Position numbers and translations under genes: made by a program
Shown: one piece after another, positions 9,678 through 14,748 of the stretch
Layout: every line of letters begins with the position of its first letter
Position numbering within the stretch: position 1 is the first letter of the stretch
The notes under the pieces: model-generated
What the model saw: the letters and a program-made list of their open reading frames with translations, nothing else
Database searches by the model: none
What the model was told of the DNA's origin: nothing
From: Kiritimatiellia bacterium
GTDB lineage: Bacteria > Verrucomicrobiota > Kiritimatiellia > PWTM01
Direction: 5' to 3'
NCBI GenBank assembly: GCA_026417735.1
Contig: JAOACR010000009.1
Span: 487,255 to 551,254 of the forward strand
Length of the DNA: 64,000 nt

Positions 9678-9701
9678 ATCGGCGGCGGCGGCACCGCCGA
9701 T
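9678..9701 (+). promoter_or_regulatory. Inverted repeat covering the mutS start codon
   Basis: ATCGGCGG at 9678-9685 and CCGCCGAT at 9694-9701 are perfect complements around an 8-base loop, and the right arm includes the first two bases of the mutS ATG. As RNA this would fold into a stable GC-rich hairpin over the start, where no good ribosome site is visible. A role in limiting MutS translation is inference. Confidence 0.4.
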
Positions 9702-12204
9702 GAGCGATCAGTTGACGCCGATGATGGCACAGTACCGGCGTCTCCGCGCCGGTTTGCCGCCGGATACGATTCTGTTCTTTCGGCTGGGCGATTTCTACGA
9801 AATGTTCGGCGACGATGCGATCCGCGCCGCCGGCATTCTCGACATTGCGCTCACACGCCGGCAGGCGGTGCCGATGTGTGGGGTGCCCTACCACGCCGCC
9901 GATTCCTACATTGCAAAGCTTCTCGCGGCCGGACTGAAGGTCGCGGTCTGCGACCAGCTCGAAGACCCCGCTACTGCCCGGGGGCTGGTCCGCCGGGACA
10001 TCACGCGGGTGGTGACCCCCGGCGCGCGCATCGAAGATGAGCTGCTCGAATCACGCCAGCACAATTGGATGGCGGCGCTGTGCCGCGGCCCCTCGGGATG
10101 GGGGCTGGCCATGCTGGAGCTGTCCACCGGCGAGTTCTGGGTCGAAGAAAGCCCCTCGCCCGACCCGATCCGAGAGCTGCTGGCGAAGTACCGCCCGGCC
10201 GAGCTGGTCGTGCCGGACGATCTGGAGACACTGCCATGGGCCGCCCCAGCGAGCGGCAGCCTGCCGGTGCTGACGCGGCTGGATGCCTGGCGGTTTGACC
10301 CCCCCACTGCGCGGGACACGCTGCTGCGGCATTTCGGCGTTGTCTCGCTGGACGGGTTCGATTGCGAGAACGCCCCCGCCGCGGTCGCCGCCGCCGGCGC
10401 GGTGCTCCACTACGTCATCGCAGACTTGCGCCGCAACGCCGCACACATTCGCACAATGGCGCGCCGGCGTTTGACTGACGACCTCGCGCTCGACGAGGCG
10501 ACCGTCGCGAACCTGGAGCTGGTCGCCTCGCGCTCCGGGCCGTCGGGGCCATGCCTGCTGCGGGTGCTCGACGTCACTTGCACACCGATGGGCACGCGCC
10601 GGATGAGAGAGTGGCTGCTGCGACCGCTCGCGAACCGCGCCGCGATCGAGGCGCGGCAAGAGGTGGTCTCCGCGCTGGTGGCGCGGCGCGACGCGCTGCG
10701 CCGACTGCGTGAGGCGCTCAGCGGCGTCCGAGACATCGAGCGGATTGTCGCGCGGCTCGGCGGTGGTGGCACCGCACGCGACGCGCGCGCGCTGGCCGAT
10801 TCGCTGCGCCGGCTGCCGGACGTGCGCGCAGCGGCGGCTTCGCTGCATACACCGCTGGCGGACCAGCTGGCTGCGGACGTCGACCCGATGCCAGACCTGC
10901 TCGACCGCATCGACCGCACGCTGGTGGACGAGCCGCCGGCAGCGCTGCGCGAAGGGGGGTTGATCCGCGCCGGGTTCCACGCGGAGCTCGACGAGCTCCG
11001 GCGAGCCGCCGCGGAGGGCCGCGACTGGGTCGCACGGTTCCAGGCGCGCGAGCAGCAGCGCACCGGCATCCGCTCCCTCAAGGTGCGGCACAACCGCGTG
11101 TTCGGCTACTACATCGAGGTGACGCGAGCGAACCTCGGCTCCGTGCCACCCGACTACATCCGAAAGCAGACGCTCGCGAACGGCGAACGGTTTGTCACCC
11201 CGGAGCTGAAGGAGTACGAGAACCGGATTCTCGGCGCGCAGCAGCGGGCAGTGGAACTGGAGTACGAACTCTTCCAGCAGCTCCGCGCCGCGATCGTCGA
11301 GCGCAGCGACGCGCTGCTGCGCGCCGCGGCCGCGGTCGCCACGCTCGATGTGCTCGCCGCGTTTGCGGACCGCGCGATCTCGCTGCGCTACGTCCGGCCG
11401 CGACTGCACGAGGGCGACCGACTGTGGATCCGCGCCGGCCGGCACCCGGTGATCGAAACGCTGCCCGACGCGGAACGCTTCGTGCCCAACGACACGCTGC
11501 TGGACACCGCCGACCACCAGATCGCGATCATCACCGGCCCCAACATGGCCGGCAAATCCACCTACATCCGGCAGGTCGCGCTGATCACCATCCTCGCCCA
11601 CGCGGGCGCGTTCGTGCCCGCCGACGAGGCGGACATCCCGCTCACCGATCGCGTCTTCACCCGCGTCGGCGCCGGCGACGACCTCGCGCGCGGGCGCAGC
11701 ACGTTCATGGTCGAGATGCAGGAAACCGCCAACATCCTGAACCACGCGACGCCCCGCAGCCTGATCGTGCTCGACGAGATCGGCCGCGGTACCAGCACCT
11801 TCGATGGCATCAGCCTCGCGTGGGCGGTCGCGGAATACCTGCACAACACGCCCACGGTGAAAGCGAAGACGCTCTTTGCCACCCACTACCACGAGCTGAC
11901 CGACCTCGCGCTCACGCTGCCGGGGGTGAAGAATTACAACGTACGCATTCGGGAGGCCGGTGACCGGATCGTGTTCCTGCGCCGAATCGAACCCGGCGCC
12001 GCCGACAAGAGCTACGGCATCCATGTCGCCCGGCTCGCCGGTCTGCCGCCCGCGGTGATCGAGCGCGCGCAGGAGATTCTAGTGAACCTGGAGGAGGGCG
12101 AGTTCGCGGAGGCGGGCCAGCCCCGGCTCGCGCGCCGGCGATCCCGCCGGCCCGCCGCCGACGGCGCACCCGAGCTGCCGCTCTTTCGCGCCGGTGGCCT
12201 CTGA
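9700..12204 (+). CDS. mutS: DNA mismatch repair protein MutS
   Basis: An 834-residue MutS, close to the E. coli length. It recognises base mismatches as a clamp-forming dimer and recruits MutL. The mismatch-reading Phe-x-Glu is F32-Y33-E34 in GDFYEMFGDD. The lever/clamp region includes RSLKVRHNRVFGYYIEVT. The ATPase has Walker A GPNMAGKST from residue 613, Walker B LIVLDEIGRG from 688, and the family stretch FATHYHEL. The C-terminus ends soon after the helix-turn-helix region, with a short basic tail. The ATG at 9700 gives the standard N-terminus. No mutL is visible in the window. Confidence 0.99.
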   Translation: MSDQLTPMMAQYRRLRAGLPPDTILFFRLGDFYEMFGDDAIRAAGILDIALTRRQAVPMCGVPYHAADSYIAKLLAAGLKVAVCDQLEDPATARGLVRRDITRVVTPGARIEDELLESRQHNWMAALCRGPSGWGLAMLELSTGEFWVEESPSPDPIRELLAKYRPAELVVPDDLETLPWAAPASGSLPVLTRLDAWRFDPPTARDTLLRHFGVVSLDGFDCENAPAAVAAAGAVLHYVIADLRRNAAHIRTMARRRLTDDLALDEATVANLELVASRSGPSGPCLLRVLDVTCTPMGTRRMREWLLRPLANRAAIEARQEVVSALVARRDALRRLREALSGVRDIERIVARLGGGGTARDARALADSLRRLPDVRAAAASLHTPLADQLAADVDPMPDLLDRIDRTLVDEPPAALREGGLIRAGFHAELDELRRAAAEGRDWVARFQAREQQRTGIRSLKVRHNRVFGYYIEVTRANLGSVPPDYIRKQTLANGERFVTPELKEYENRILGAQQRAVELEYELFQQLRAAIVERSDALLRAAAAVATLDVLAAFADRAISLRYVRPRLHEGDRLWIRAGRHPVIETLPDAERFVPNDTLLDTADHQIAIITGPNMAGKSTYIRQVALITILAHAGAFVPADEADIPLTDRVFTRVGAGDDLARGRSTFMVEMQETANILNHATPRSLIVLDEIGRGTSTFDGISLAWAVAEYLHNTPTVKAKTLFATHYHELTDLALTLPGVKNYNVRIREAGDRIVFLRRIEPGAADKSYGIHVARLAGLPPAVIERAQEILVNLEEGEFAEAGQPRLARRRSRRPAADGAPELPLFRAGGL

Positions 12205-12266: not shown

Positions 12267-13115
12267 ATGACGATCATCGAGCCCCACATCCACATGTACA
12301 CCCGCACCACCGACGACTACACCGCGATGTACCGAGAAGGAATCCGTTGCGTCGTCGAGCCGTCGTTCTGGCTCGGATCCGCTCGCCGCTATGCCGGCAC
12401 CTTCTGGGACTACTTCCAGCACAGCCTCGAATTCGAGGCCGTGCGCGCGGCACGGTTCGGCATTGACCACTACGCGTGCGTCGCAGTGAACCCGAAGGAG
12501 GCGGACAACCTCCGCCTGGCGCACGAAGTGCTCGATGGTATTGCGCCCTACCTCGATCACCCGCGCTGCGTGGCGATCGGCGAGATCGGCTTCAACCGCA
12601 TCACCCGCCACGAGGAAGAAATCTTCCAGCGCCAGCTCGAGCTGGCGAAGACACGCCGCATGCTGATCCTGATTCACACGCCGCACGACACCGCGGAGGT
12701 CCGCAAGCGCGACGGTGTGGAGCGGACGCTCGCAATCCTGCGCGAGCTGAACTACGACGAGAACCGCATCATCGTGGACCACAACACCGAAGACACGATG
12801 GACCTCACGCGGCGGACCGGCGTGTGGGCGGGGATGACGGTGTATCCGTACTCAAAACTGAACCCGGAACGCGTGATTCATCTGCTCCGGCGCTGGGGCA
12901 TCGAACGTTCGCTGGTGAACAGCTCGGCGGACTGGGGTGTTTCGGACCCCTGTTCGCTGCCAAAGGTCGCCCGGCACATGCGCGAAAACGGCTTCCGCAC
13001 CGACCAGATCGAGCAACTCTTGTTTCACAATCCGATGAGCTTCTACGGTCAGTGCGAACGGTTTCGGCCGAATCTTCAGCTTCCCTTTCAGGACCCCGCG
13101 CAGTACCAGCGGTGA
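12267..13115 (+). CDS. eboB: TatD-like metal-dependent hydrolase, EboB-like
   Basis: A 282-residue TIM-barrel hydrolase of the TatD-related type. Candidate metal ligands are H7 and H9 (EPHIHMY), the Glu in AIGEIGFN, His in LIHTPH, His in VDHNTED and Asp in SADWG. The stretches VEPSFWLGSARRYAGTFWDY and CVAVNPKEAD are characteristic, as I recall them, of the hydrolase of the ebo (eustigmatophyte/bacterial operon) cluster rather than of ordinary TatD. The next gene is UbiA/EboC-like and overlaps it by four bases, which supports that reading. Ebo genes are linked to transporting metabolite precursors across the inner membrane in cyanobacteria; the role here is inferred. Confidence 0.82.
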   Translation: MTIIEPHIHMYTRTTDDYTAMYREGIRCVVEPSFWLGSARRYAGTFWDYFQHSLEFEAVRAARFGIDHYACVAVNPKEADNLRLAHEVLDGIAPYLDHPRCVAIGEIGFNRITRHEEEIFQRQLELAKTRRMLILIHTPHDTAEVRKRDGVERTLAILRELNYDENRIIVDHNTEDTMDLTRRTGVWAGMTVYPYSKLNPERVIHLLRRWGIERSLVNSSADWGVSDPCSLPKVARHMRENGFRTDQIEQLLFHNPMSFYGQCERFRPNLQLPFQDPAQYQR

Positions 13116-13843
13116 ACCACCGCCGCCAACGCGCCGAGGCGTGGCTGCGCCTCTTGCGCCCGGCAAACCTGCTCACCGCGCCAGGAGATCCTCTGGTCGG
13201 CGCCATGCTGGCAGCGGCCGATACGGGCGGATCGGCGGCCCCGCCGTGGGCGGCGATGGGGGCGGCGCTGGCGTTGTATGCGGCCGGAATTCTCGACAAT
13301 GACCTCACCGGCCTGGACGAGGATCGCCGCACCGGCCGGCCTCGACCGCTGGCGACTGGCGAGCTCCCCACCGGCGCGGCCGCCGGTGCGCGCCTGGCGC
13401 TGTTTGCGGCAGGGCTCGGCGCCGCCGCAGTGGCGGGTCGCGCCGCGTGTTCGGCGGCGGCGGCATTGACCGTGTTGATTCTCGCCTACCACCGCCTCGG
13501 CCGCTGGCGCCACTGGCTGGGACCCGCAGTGCTCGGTCTCTGCCGCGCGGTGAGTCTGCTGATGGGCGCGCTCGCGGTCATACCGGCGGCCGGGGGAACA
13601 CGGGTCGCGCTTGCGGCGGTGGTGTGGTGCCTGCTCATCGGCGGACTTGCGACCGCGGCGCGAAACGAACTTTCGCACCCCGGCCGTCCGGAGTTGATCG
13701 GCCGCCTGCTCTGCGGATGGCCGCTGGTGCAGGCGGCGGCGGTTGTGCTCGCCAACCGGCCTGGCTCATTCCTGGCGGCCGGCGCGCTCGCCGGCCTCTC
13801 CTGGTGTGCGCATCGCCTGCGCCGGCGCTGGCCGCCGAGCTGA
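13112..13843 (+). CDS. eboC: UbiA-like prenyltransferase, EboC-like
   Basis: A 243-residue integral membrane protein of the UbiA superfamily with about seven or eight hydrophobic helices. The first Asp-rich motif region is DNDLTGLDEDRRTGRPRPLA (residues 62-81), followed by GLCRAVSLLMGALAV and TAARNELSHPGR, which correspond to conserved EboC blocks. The motif spacing (ND at 63-64, Asp at 69 and 71) differs from canonical NDxxD prenyltransferases, so transferase activity on a classical substrate is uncertain. The start GTG at 13112 overlaps the upstream TGA as GTGA, typical of translational coupling. The gene converges on pstB with only eight bases between the stops. No EboA, D, E or F homologue is visible nearby. 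Confidence 0.85.
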   Translation: MNHRRQRAEAWLRLLRPANLLTAPGDPLVGAMLAAADTGGSAAPPWAAMGAALALYAAGILDNDLTGLDEDRRTGRPRPLATGELPTGAAAGARLALFAAGLGAAAVAGRAACSAAAALTVLILAYHRLGRWRHWLGPAVLGLCRAVSLLMGALAVIPAAGGTRVALAAVVWCLLIGGLATAARNELSHPGRPELIGRLLCGWPLVQAAAVVLANRPGSFLAAGALAGLSWCAHRLRRRWPPS

Positions 13844-13851
13844 GCCAGGTT

Positions 13852-14736
13852 TCAGCCGAAGCGGCCGGTCACGTAGGCGAGCGTTTCGGGCAAGTGGGGC
13901 TGCTGGAAGATTGTTGCGGTGGGACCGAACTCGATCAGCCGGCCGAGATACATGAACGCGGTGTAGTCGCTGGTGCGGGCGGCCTGTTGCATGTTGTGCG
14001 TGACGATCACGATCGTGTACTCGCCACGCAGCCCTTCCATCAGCTCCTCGATTTTGTTCGTCGCGATCGGGTCAAGGGCAGAACAGGGCTCGTCCATCAG
14101 CAATACCTCGGGCTCCGCGGCGATCGCACGGGCGATACACAGACGCTGCTGCTGACCGCCGGAGAGTCCCATCGCGCTCTCGTGCAGGCGGTCCTTCACC
14201 TCGTCCCACAGCGCGGCGCCGCGAAGACTGCGTTCGCAGGCCTCGTCGAGCACCGCCCGATCGCGAACGCCGTCAATCCGAAGGGGATAGACCACGTTCT
14301 CGTACACCGACATCGGAAACGGGTTCGGCTTCTGGAACACCATCCCCATCCGCTTGCGCAGCTCGATGACGTCCACACCGGGCGCGAAGATCGACTCCCC
14401 GTTCAACAGGATGTCGCCAGTGGTGCGGACCGTGCCGACGAGATCGTTGATTCGGTTGACCGAGCGCAGCAGCGTGGATTTGCCGCAGCCCGATGGCCCC
14501 ACCAGCGCGGTGATGCGCCCTTTCGGGATGGGCATGTGCACATCGAAGAGCGCCTGTTTGGGTCCGTACCAGAGGTTGAAACCGCGCACATCCACCAGCG
14601 GCGTCTCCGCTCGCAGCTCCTCGTGGAGCTCGGTGCGAACCGGCTCGCCCGCCGCGATCGCGGCGAGACGGCCGGCGGCCGGGGCGGCGATATCCAGCGC
14701 GGCGTCGAGCTTGGGCAGTTCCGGCAGCGCAGCCAT
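13852..14736 (-). CDS. pstB: Phosphate ABC transporter ATP-binding protein PstB
   Basis: The ATPase of the high-affinity phosphate importer. It has Walker [10 protein letters not shown], the Q-loop in [13 protein letters not shown], the signature LSGGQQQRL, Walker [15 protein letters not shown] and the switch His in [11 protein letters not shown]. The [10 protein letters not shown] block is specific to PstB. About 45 extra residues precede the ABC core, more than in E. coli PstB. GGAGG nine bases before the ATG at 14736 supports that start; a GTG one codon upstream is equally possible. It is the last gene of pstSCAB, and its ribosome site overlaps the end of pstA. No phoU follows. Confidence 0.98.
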
Positions 14737-14748
14737 CACGGAGACCTC

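Follow-up and report, generated by a model that had tools for sequence, protein, structure and literature searches.

A five-gene ebo set dispersed over three loci in a Kiritimatiellia bacterium, with neither EboA nor EboG found

Introduction

In the genome of a Kiritimatiellia bacterium, genes for an EboB/TatD-like hydrolase and a short UbiA-superfamily membrane protein of EboC type lie side by side between mutS and pst genes, with no other ebo gene next to them. The pair raises two questions: (i) whether two Ebo proteins can make up a working system and (ii) where any other Ebo proteins are encoded and what they might do together. An earlier note on the 64,000-nucleotide stretch of DNA analyzed here (the window) proposed that the pair is a minimal core that works alone in the PVC group. 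Our preferred reading is that it represents the B-C part of an ancestral eboB-C-F-D-E operon, broken as BC/FD/E (slashes mark breaks), and that the five proteins share one pathway. We give this combined reading a probability of roughly 0.7. Its genomic part, a split and fully retained five-gene set, is close to certain; the pathway mechanism is tentative, and we hold it at slightly below an even chance. A search of papers returned nothing specific on ebo in Kiritimatiellia, Lentisphaerae or Planctomycetes.

The eboB-eboC locus

The two open reading frames, their GTGA overlap and their position between mutS and pst genes are as first described (Table 1), and the assignment to EboB and EboC was right, judging by profile matches and by identity to annotated ebo proteins. 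The overlap suggests that translation of eboC is coupled to that of eboB; the last codon of eboB is also the eboC start in loci L068, L069, L071 and L073. Overlapping or adjacent eboB and eboC genes occur in all nine genomes examined from the family of the window, which rules out chance co-location.

Table 1. Features of the eboB-eboC locus (window positions) and of the partner loci in the same genome (contig and positions)
Feature	Position	Strand	Description
mutS	9700..12204	+	upstream neighbor; context, outside the ebo system
eboB	12267..13115	+	282 aa, ATG start; EboB/TatD-like metal-dependent hydrolase
GTGA overlap	13112..13115	+	eboB stop TGA / eboC start GTG
eboC	13112..13843	+	243 aa, GTG start; short UbiA-superfamily membrane protein
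EboC Asp-rich motif 1, NDLTGLDED	13298..13324	+	residues 63-71, Gly for the middle Asp
pstB	13852..14739	-	downstream neighbor; context
eboE	C12:41487-42629		360.8 bits, above its cut-off
eboF-eboD pair	C23:119918-122507		best phosphodiesterase match, then directly a sugar-phosphate cyclase

EboB matches the Pfam model TatD_DNase (PF01026) weakly, at 52.9 bits, and scores 33.6 bits against TIGR00010, for which the cut-off is 206; the NCBIfam TatD models all fall far under their cut-offs. Its best matches are the TatD-like proteins of ebo clusters, with 41-46% identity to EboB of annotated clusters over 93-98% of the query, so the possibility that the gene encodes an ordinary TatD DNase, which the earlier note had wanted checked, falls away. 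The named matches are metagenome-assembled genomes (MAGs) of Kiritimatiellae, Lentisphaerae/Lentisphaeria and Planctomycetota, plus one of Fibrobacteria. Across an alignment of 34 EboB sequences H7, H9, E106, H137, H172 and D222 are invariant, residues that we take for the metal ligands typical of the TatD/amidohydrolase superfamily. Within the genus, EboB is 80-89% identical. In the EboB tree the window lineage (groups 1 and 2) forms its own clade (support 100/99), apart from both the EboA-type clade (99/97) and the EboG-type clade (100/99).

The position of the pair invites a local explanation, in which EboB and EboC were recruited to DNA repair by mutS or to phosphate metabolism by pst and have nothing to do with the other Ebo proteins. 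We consider this highly improbable. The mutS gene is kept upstream across the genus and in L070 (L068-L071), but pstB lies beside the pair in the nearest relative, L068, only. Elsewhere B and C occur in other neighborhoods and also, with F, D and E, in intact operons, and the EboB scores speak against a role as a TatD DNase. Local recruitment further predicts no co-occurrence with D, E and F, yet the co-occurrence observed is strong (see below).

The partner genes are encoded elsewhere in the genome

The genome that contains the window (G000; 3.09 Mb, 24 contigs, 96.8% complete) encodes EboB, EboC, EboD, EboE and EboF. With annotated counterparts from plasmid records (Aureibacter, Azospirillum, Streptomyces and Gloeothece), EboF shares 34-43% identity and EboD, compared with EboD-type proteins, 42-49%. 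Only one copy each of EboB and EboC was found. Thus the earlier statement that only the pair remains does not hold. The partners that it had suggested looking for turned up in the case of D, E and F; EboA did not. Nor is there a full cluster elsewhere with its own B and C genes, but a single set spread over three loci.

The three loci lie on three contigs, well inside sequences of 552, 76 and 227 kb. Because every locus is interior to its contig, the separation is real, and an artefact of assembly or contig breaks is ruled out. The eboE gene is flanked by a sugar epimerase-like gene and a ferredoxin-type gene (both named from sequence, with no family search), and the eboF-eboD pair by an SMC-like gene (named in the same way) and a family 2 glycosyltransferase gene.

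Co-occurrence across the class

We sampled 146 genomes of the class, counting EboF and EboD at strict E-values. EboB is present in 95, EboE in 93, EboF in 99 and EboD in 90. EboB and EboE occur together in 88 genomes, EboB without EboE in 7, EboE without EboB in 5 and neither in 46, an association with a Fisher P of about 1e-24, a value that ignores shared ancestry. All five genes are found in 80 of the 146. EboB and EboC without any of D, E and F were seen in a single genome, G085, which is 68% complete, so conservation of the pair alone among relatives, which might have argued for a minimal core, is not what the class displays.

The genes are nevertheless not strictly inseparable, since EboF occurs without B, D and E in seven genomes (G066, G086, G078, G105, G123, G138 and, more weakly, G143). 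In most of them an EboC that scores above the gap described below is present as well. One, G066, is 100% complete and encodes EboF and an EboC-like protein, and nothing in it matches EboB, EboD or EboE. Should one pair stand on its own in the class, it is C and F, not B and C.

Break-up of the operon

Intact B-C-F-D-E runs are present in L047-L056, L102, L105, L111, L112, L121, L124, L132, L134 and L144, and in named MAGs of Planctomycetota, Lentisphaerae/Lentisphaeria and Kiritimatiellae. The tight ones among these operons leave no space for an extra gene. Within the EboB group of the window the operon is mostly broken, at junctions that differ between families: BC/FD/E in the genome of the window and in G004, G022, G034 and G065; BC/FDE in G075, which belongs to the same family as the window; B/CFDE in genus g11; and BC/F/DE and BCF/DE in other genomes of the group. 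G023 still has the intact order. Counts of splits are inflated by contig breaks in fragmented MAGs, though not in the genome of the window itself. As the operon broke at different junctions in different families, ebo genes that seem to be missing from a cluster in this group have usually moved and not been lost.

The B-C junction is the best kept in group 1 (29 of the 37 genomes having both genes). This adjacency, together with the close pairing of the two genes at 12267-13843 and their overlap of 4 bp, is what would speak for EboB and EboC as a minimal two-protein module that needs no other Ebo protein. Against it, genus g11 has eboB and eboC apart, as do the EboG-type genomes with both genes (19 of 19), so the junction is not protected as a unit; the genome with the pair also encodes F, D and E; and the one genome with B and C alone is the 68%-complete G085. 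With the partners present and the genes co-occurring, the minimal core of the earlier note is refuted as regards gene content, and we regard a self-sufficient pair as very doubtful indeed. The reading as a two-protein ebo system is corrected accordingly.

Beside intact operons we detected no conserved extra gene other than an O-methyltransferase at some loci. It adjoins the BCFDE operon in L117, L121, L127, L134, L144 and L146, and in the four loci scanned it is a Methyltransf_2 protein with a dimerisation domain; L140, the seventh locus of the methyltransferase cluster, has a different methyltransferase. The gene is not universal and is neither EboA nor EboG, and we rejected it as a conserved extra ebo gene; it could be a hint at a methylated aromatic product.

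Some variant clusters were also seen. A Fibrobacteria MAG (L120) has a B-F-D-E cluster with no adjacent eboC. An archaeal ebo-like locus on a Halobaculum salinum plasmid (L149) encodes EboB, a UbiA protein, a phosphodiesterase and two sugar-phosphate isomerase/epimerase genes, with inositol-3-phosphate synthase at the place expected for EboD. On a Streptomyces plasmid (L046), A, B, E and F are accompanied by an SCO3242-type prenyltransferase and, again, by inositol-3-phosphate synthase.

EboC: family, fold and evolution

The best NCBIfam model for the window EboC is prenyl_rel_EboC (NF035940, UbiA-like protein EboC), at 89 bits (E 3.5e-25) against a curated cut-off of 250. EboC proteins of the class that lie within intact ebo operons also miss the cut-off (144.6 and 145.9 bits), so this lineage falls outside the model. 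With a profile built for EboC of the class, the window protein scores 217.5 bits and the next UbiA protein of the same genome 62; EboC matches reach at least 127 bits and other UbiA proteins at most 62. This gap places the protein as an ortholog of the EboC of ebo operons and bears out the family expected by the earlier note.

The protein departs from long EboC proteins in two ways. The Asp-rich motif 1 lacks the middle Asp of the full NDxxDxxxD pattern, with Gly at position 67 in all four members of the genus (the window, L068, L069 and L071) and in L098. In addition, about 50 aa are missing near the C-terminus, and such short forms occur in several families. N63, D64, D71, R78, R145 and E186 are invariant across the aligned set. 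In the AlphaFold model (pLDDT 95.4, pTM 0.92) the protein is confidently predicted to fold as a UbiA protein; the nearest folds are DGGGP synthase (7bpu/6m31) and the Archaeoglobus UbiA homologue 4tq4, with a query TM-score of about 0.6, and a sequence-profile match to 6m31 (E 3e-24) agrees with the structure search. Given the missing Asp and C-terminal residues, catalysis by this EboC is not assured.

Evolutionary rates show purifying selection on the genes tested (B, C, F and D). Against the same relative (G004/L068), dN/dS is 0.07 for EboB, 0.16 for EboF, 0.16 for EboD and 0.38 for EboC, and in comparisons within the genus it is 0.38-0.47 for EboC versus about 0.06-0.14 for EboB. The open frame, below-neutral rate and confident fold rule out a pseudogene. 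Searching plasmid records with EboC (tblastn, 1e-5) gave no matches, which says little because EboC diverges fast.

These features raise the possibility that the dispersed genes are decaying, either because the EboC of this genus is no longer active as a prenyltransferase and serves only as a scaffold or carrier, or because all of the genes are being lost. The loss of the middle Asp and of about 50 aa fits such decay, as does the higher dN/dS of EboC. So does the relative G011, in which the ebo genes of contig C1 look degenerate: B, C and F all have in-frame stops within their matches, E is partial, and nothing matches EboD. Yet the other motif residues are invariant, EboC outpaces EboB in other lineages too and short forms are not peculiar to this genus; set beside the open frame, the constraint and the predicted UbiA fold, these make decay unlikely, though a good deal less remote than the local and two-protein explanations.

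EboA and EboG

The EboA model NF035938 had no match in the genome of the window or in the 146 genomes of the class, in a search in which the controls were silent as well; as a positive control for the model, three known EboA proteins score 134-151 bits. EboG is a published alternative to EboA (PMC5133447). We picked a Deinococcus EboG candidate by its position between eboD and eboB and used it as the seed for a homologue search. In every sampled locus of the class that belongs to the third EboB group, a homologue with 40-46% identity lies directly upstream of eboB. These EboG-type loci (L063, L064, L065 and L150-L168) encode a short EboG protein that no NCBIfam model matches and that has sub-threshold Pfam matches only. 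A 20-row EboG profile found nothing in the genome of the window; its strong matches are confined to EboG-type genomes, and there is one weak match, in G002.

From these searches, the class appears to hold two kinds of ebo system, one with neither A nor G. A remote, unlinked analogue of A or G may be present in the window lineage. By a small margin we favor a third ebo lineage, in Kiritimatiellia, Lentisphaeria and Planctomycetota, that would work with five genes in the order B-C-F-D-E and without EboA or EboG. The residual novelty is this five-gene lineage lacking A and G, together with its break-up across families; BC/FD/E is one arrangement of many.

A possible shared pathway

Under our preferred reading, the five proteins would still act in one pathway although they are encoded at three places. 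EboD, a sugar-phosphate cyclase, and EboF, a phosphodiesterase/pyrophosphatase, could make or trim a polar head group, which EboB (a metal hydrolase) and EboE (a TIM barrel) may then modify. The membrane UbiA protein EboC would join the head group to a prenyl chain, giving a lipid-linked small molecule that the inner membrane would be the site of making or that would be moved across it, comparable to the export of the scytonemin monomer suggested for Nostoc. We infer a prenyl-metabolite pathway or carrier shared by five proteins, not a two-protein system.

Nostoc mutants deleted for any one of A, B, C, E and F fail to make scytonemin, the monomer of which stays behind in the cytoplasm (PMC6282210). 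EboA is thus required there (PMC6282210) but was not found here, and the Nostoc role may not transfer. With EboA and EboG apparently both lacking, the requirements of the conserved ebo chemistry are narrowed to five proteins, and the role of EboA becomes testable. If the lineage indeed does without A and G, EboA, the proposed organizer of an EboA-B-C membrane complex and essential in Nostoc, would lie outside the core chemistry. The co-occurrence pattern and the naturally short EboC can be used to help tell whether the role of ebo lies in biosynthesis or in export.

Comparison with known Ebo proteins and ebo systems

The flavobacterial EboC Ubi-297 belongs to the same family as the window EboC and shares its UbiA fold and Asp-rich motif 1, and a flavobacterial EboC was shown in vitro to attach a farnesyl group to 8-hydroxyquinoline-2-carboxylic acid (PMC9235831). 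In contrast to Ubi-297, the window EboC lacks the middle Asp; relative to long EboC proteins, it is short by about 50 aa. For EboB the nearest solved structure by sequence is AF_1765 (PDB 3guw, an uncharacterised protein; E 3e-23), which is far more distant than the EboB proteins of ebo clusters.

Operons of the eboA type, ABCDEF and rearrangements of it, are known from Bacteroidetes, Cyanobacteria and Proteobacteria (PMC5133447). Counterparts of B, C, D, E and F are all in the genome of the window, but no EboA was found, EboB falls in a separate clade, the set is split over three loci and the gene order in relatives is BCFDE. The eboG type, reported from Deinococcus, Herpetosiphon and others (PMC5133447), shares B, C, D, E and F and the lack of EboA with the set described here. 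It differs in that the genome of the window has no EboG match and its EboB lies outside the EboG-type clade; the eboG type is itself found elsewhere in the class, in families where eboG immediately precedes eboB.

A parallel in layout comes from Planctomycetes, where ebo genes are unclustered in three species, two of them without eboD (PMC5133447). Like those sets, the ebo genes described here are scattered and belong to a PVC-group bacterium; unlike them, eboD is present and eboA was not found. Other Planctomycetota MAGs (L102, L112 and L132) retain the intact BCFDE operon.
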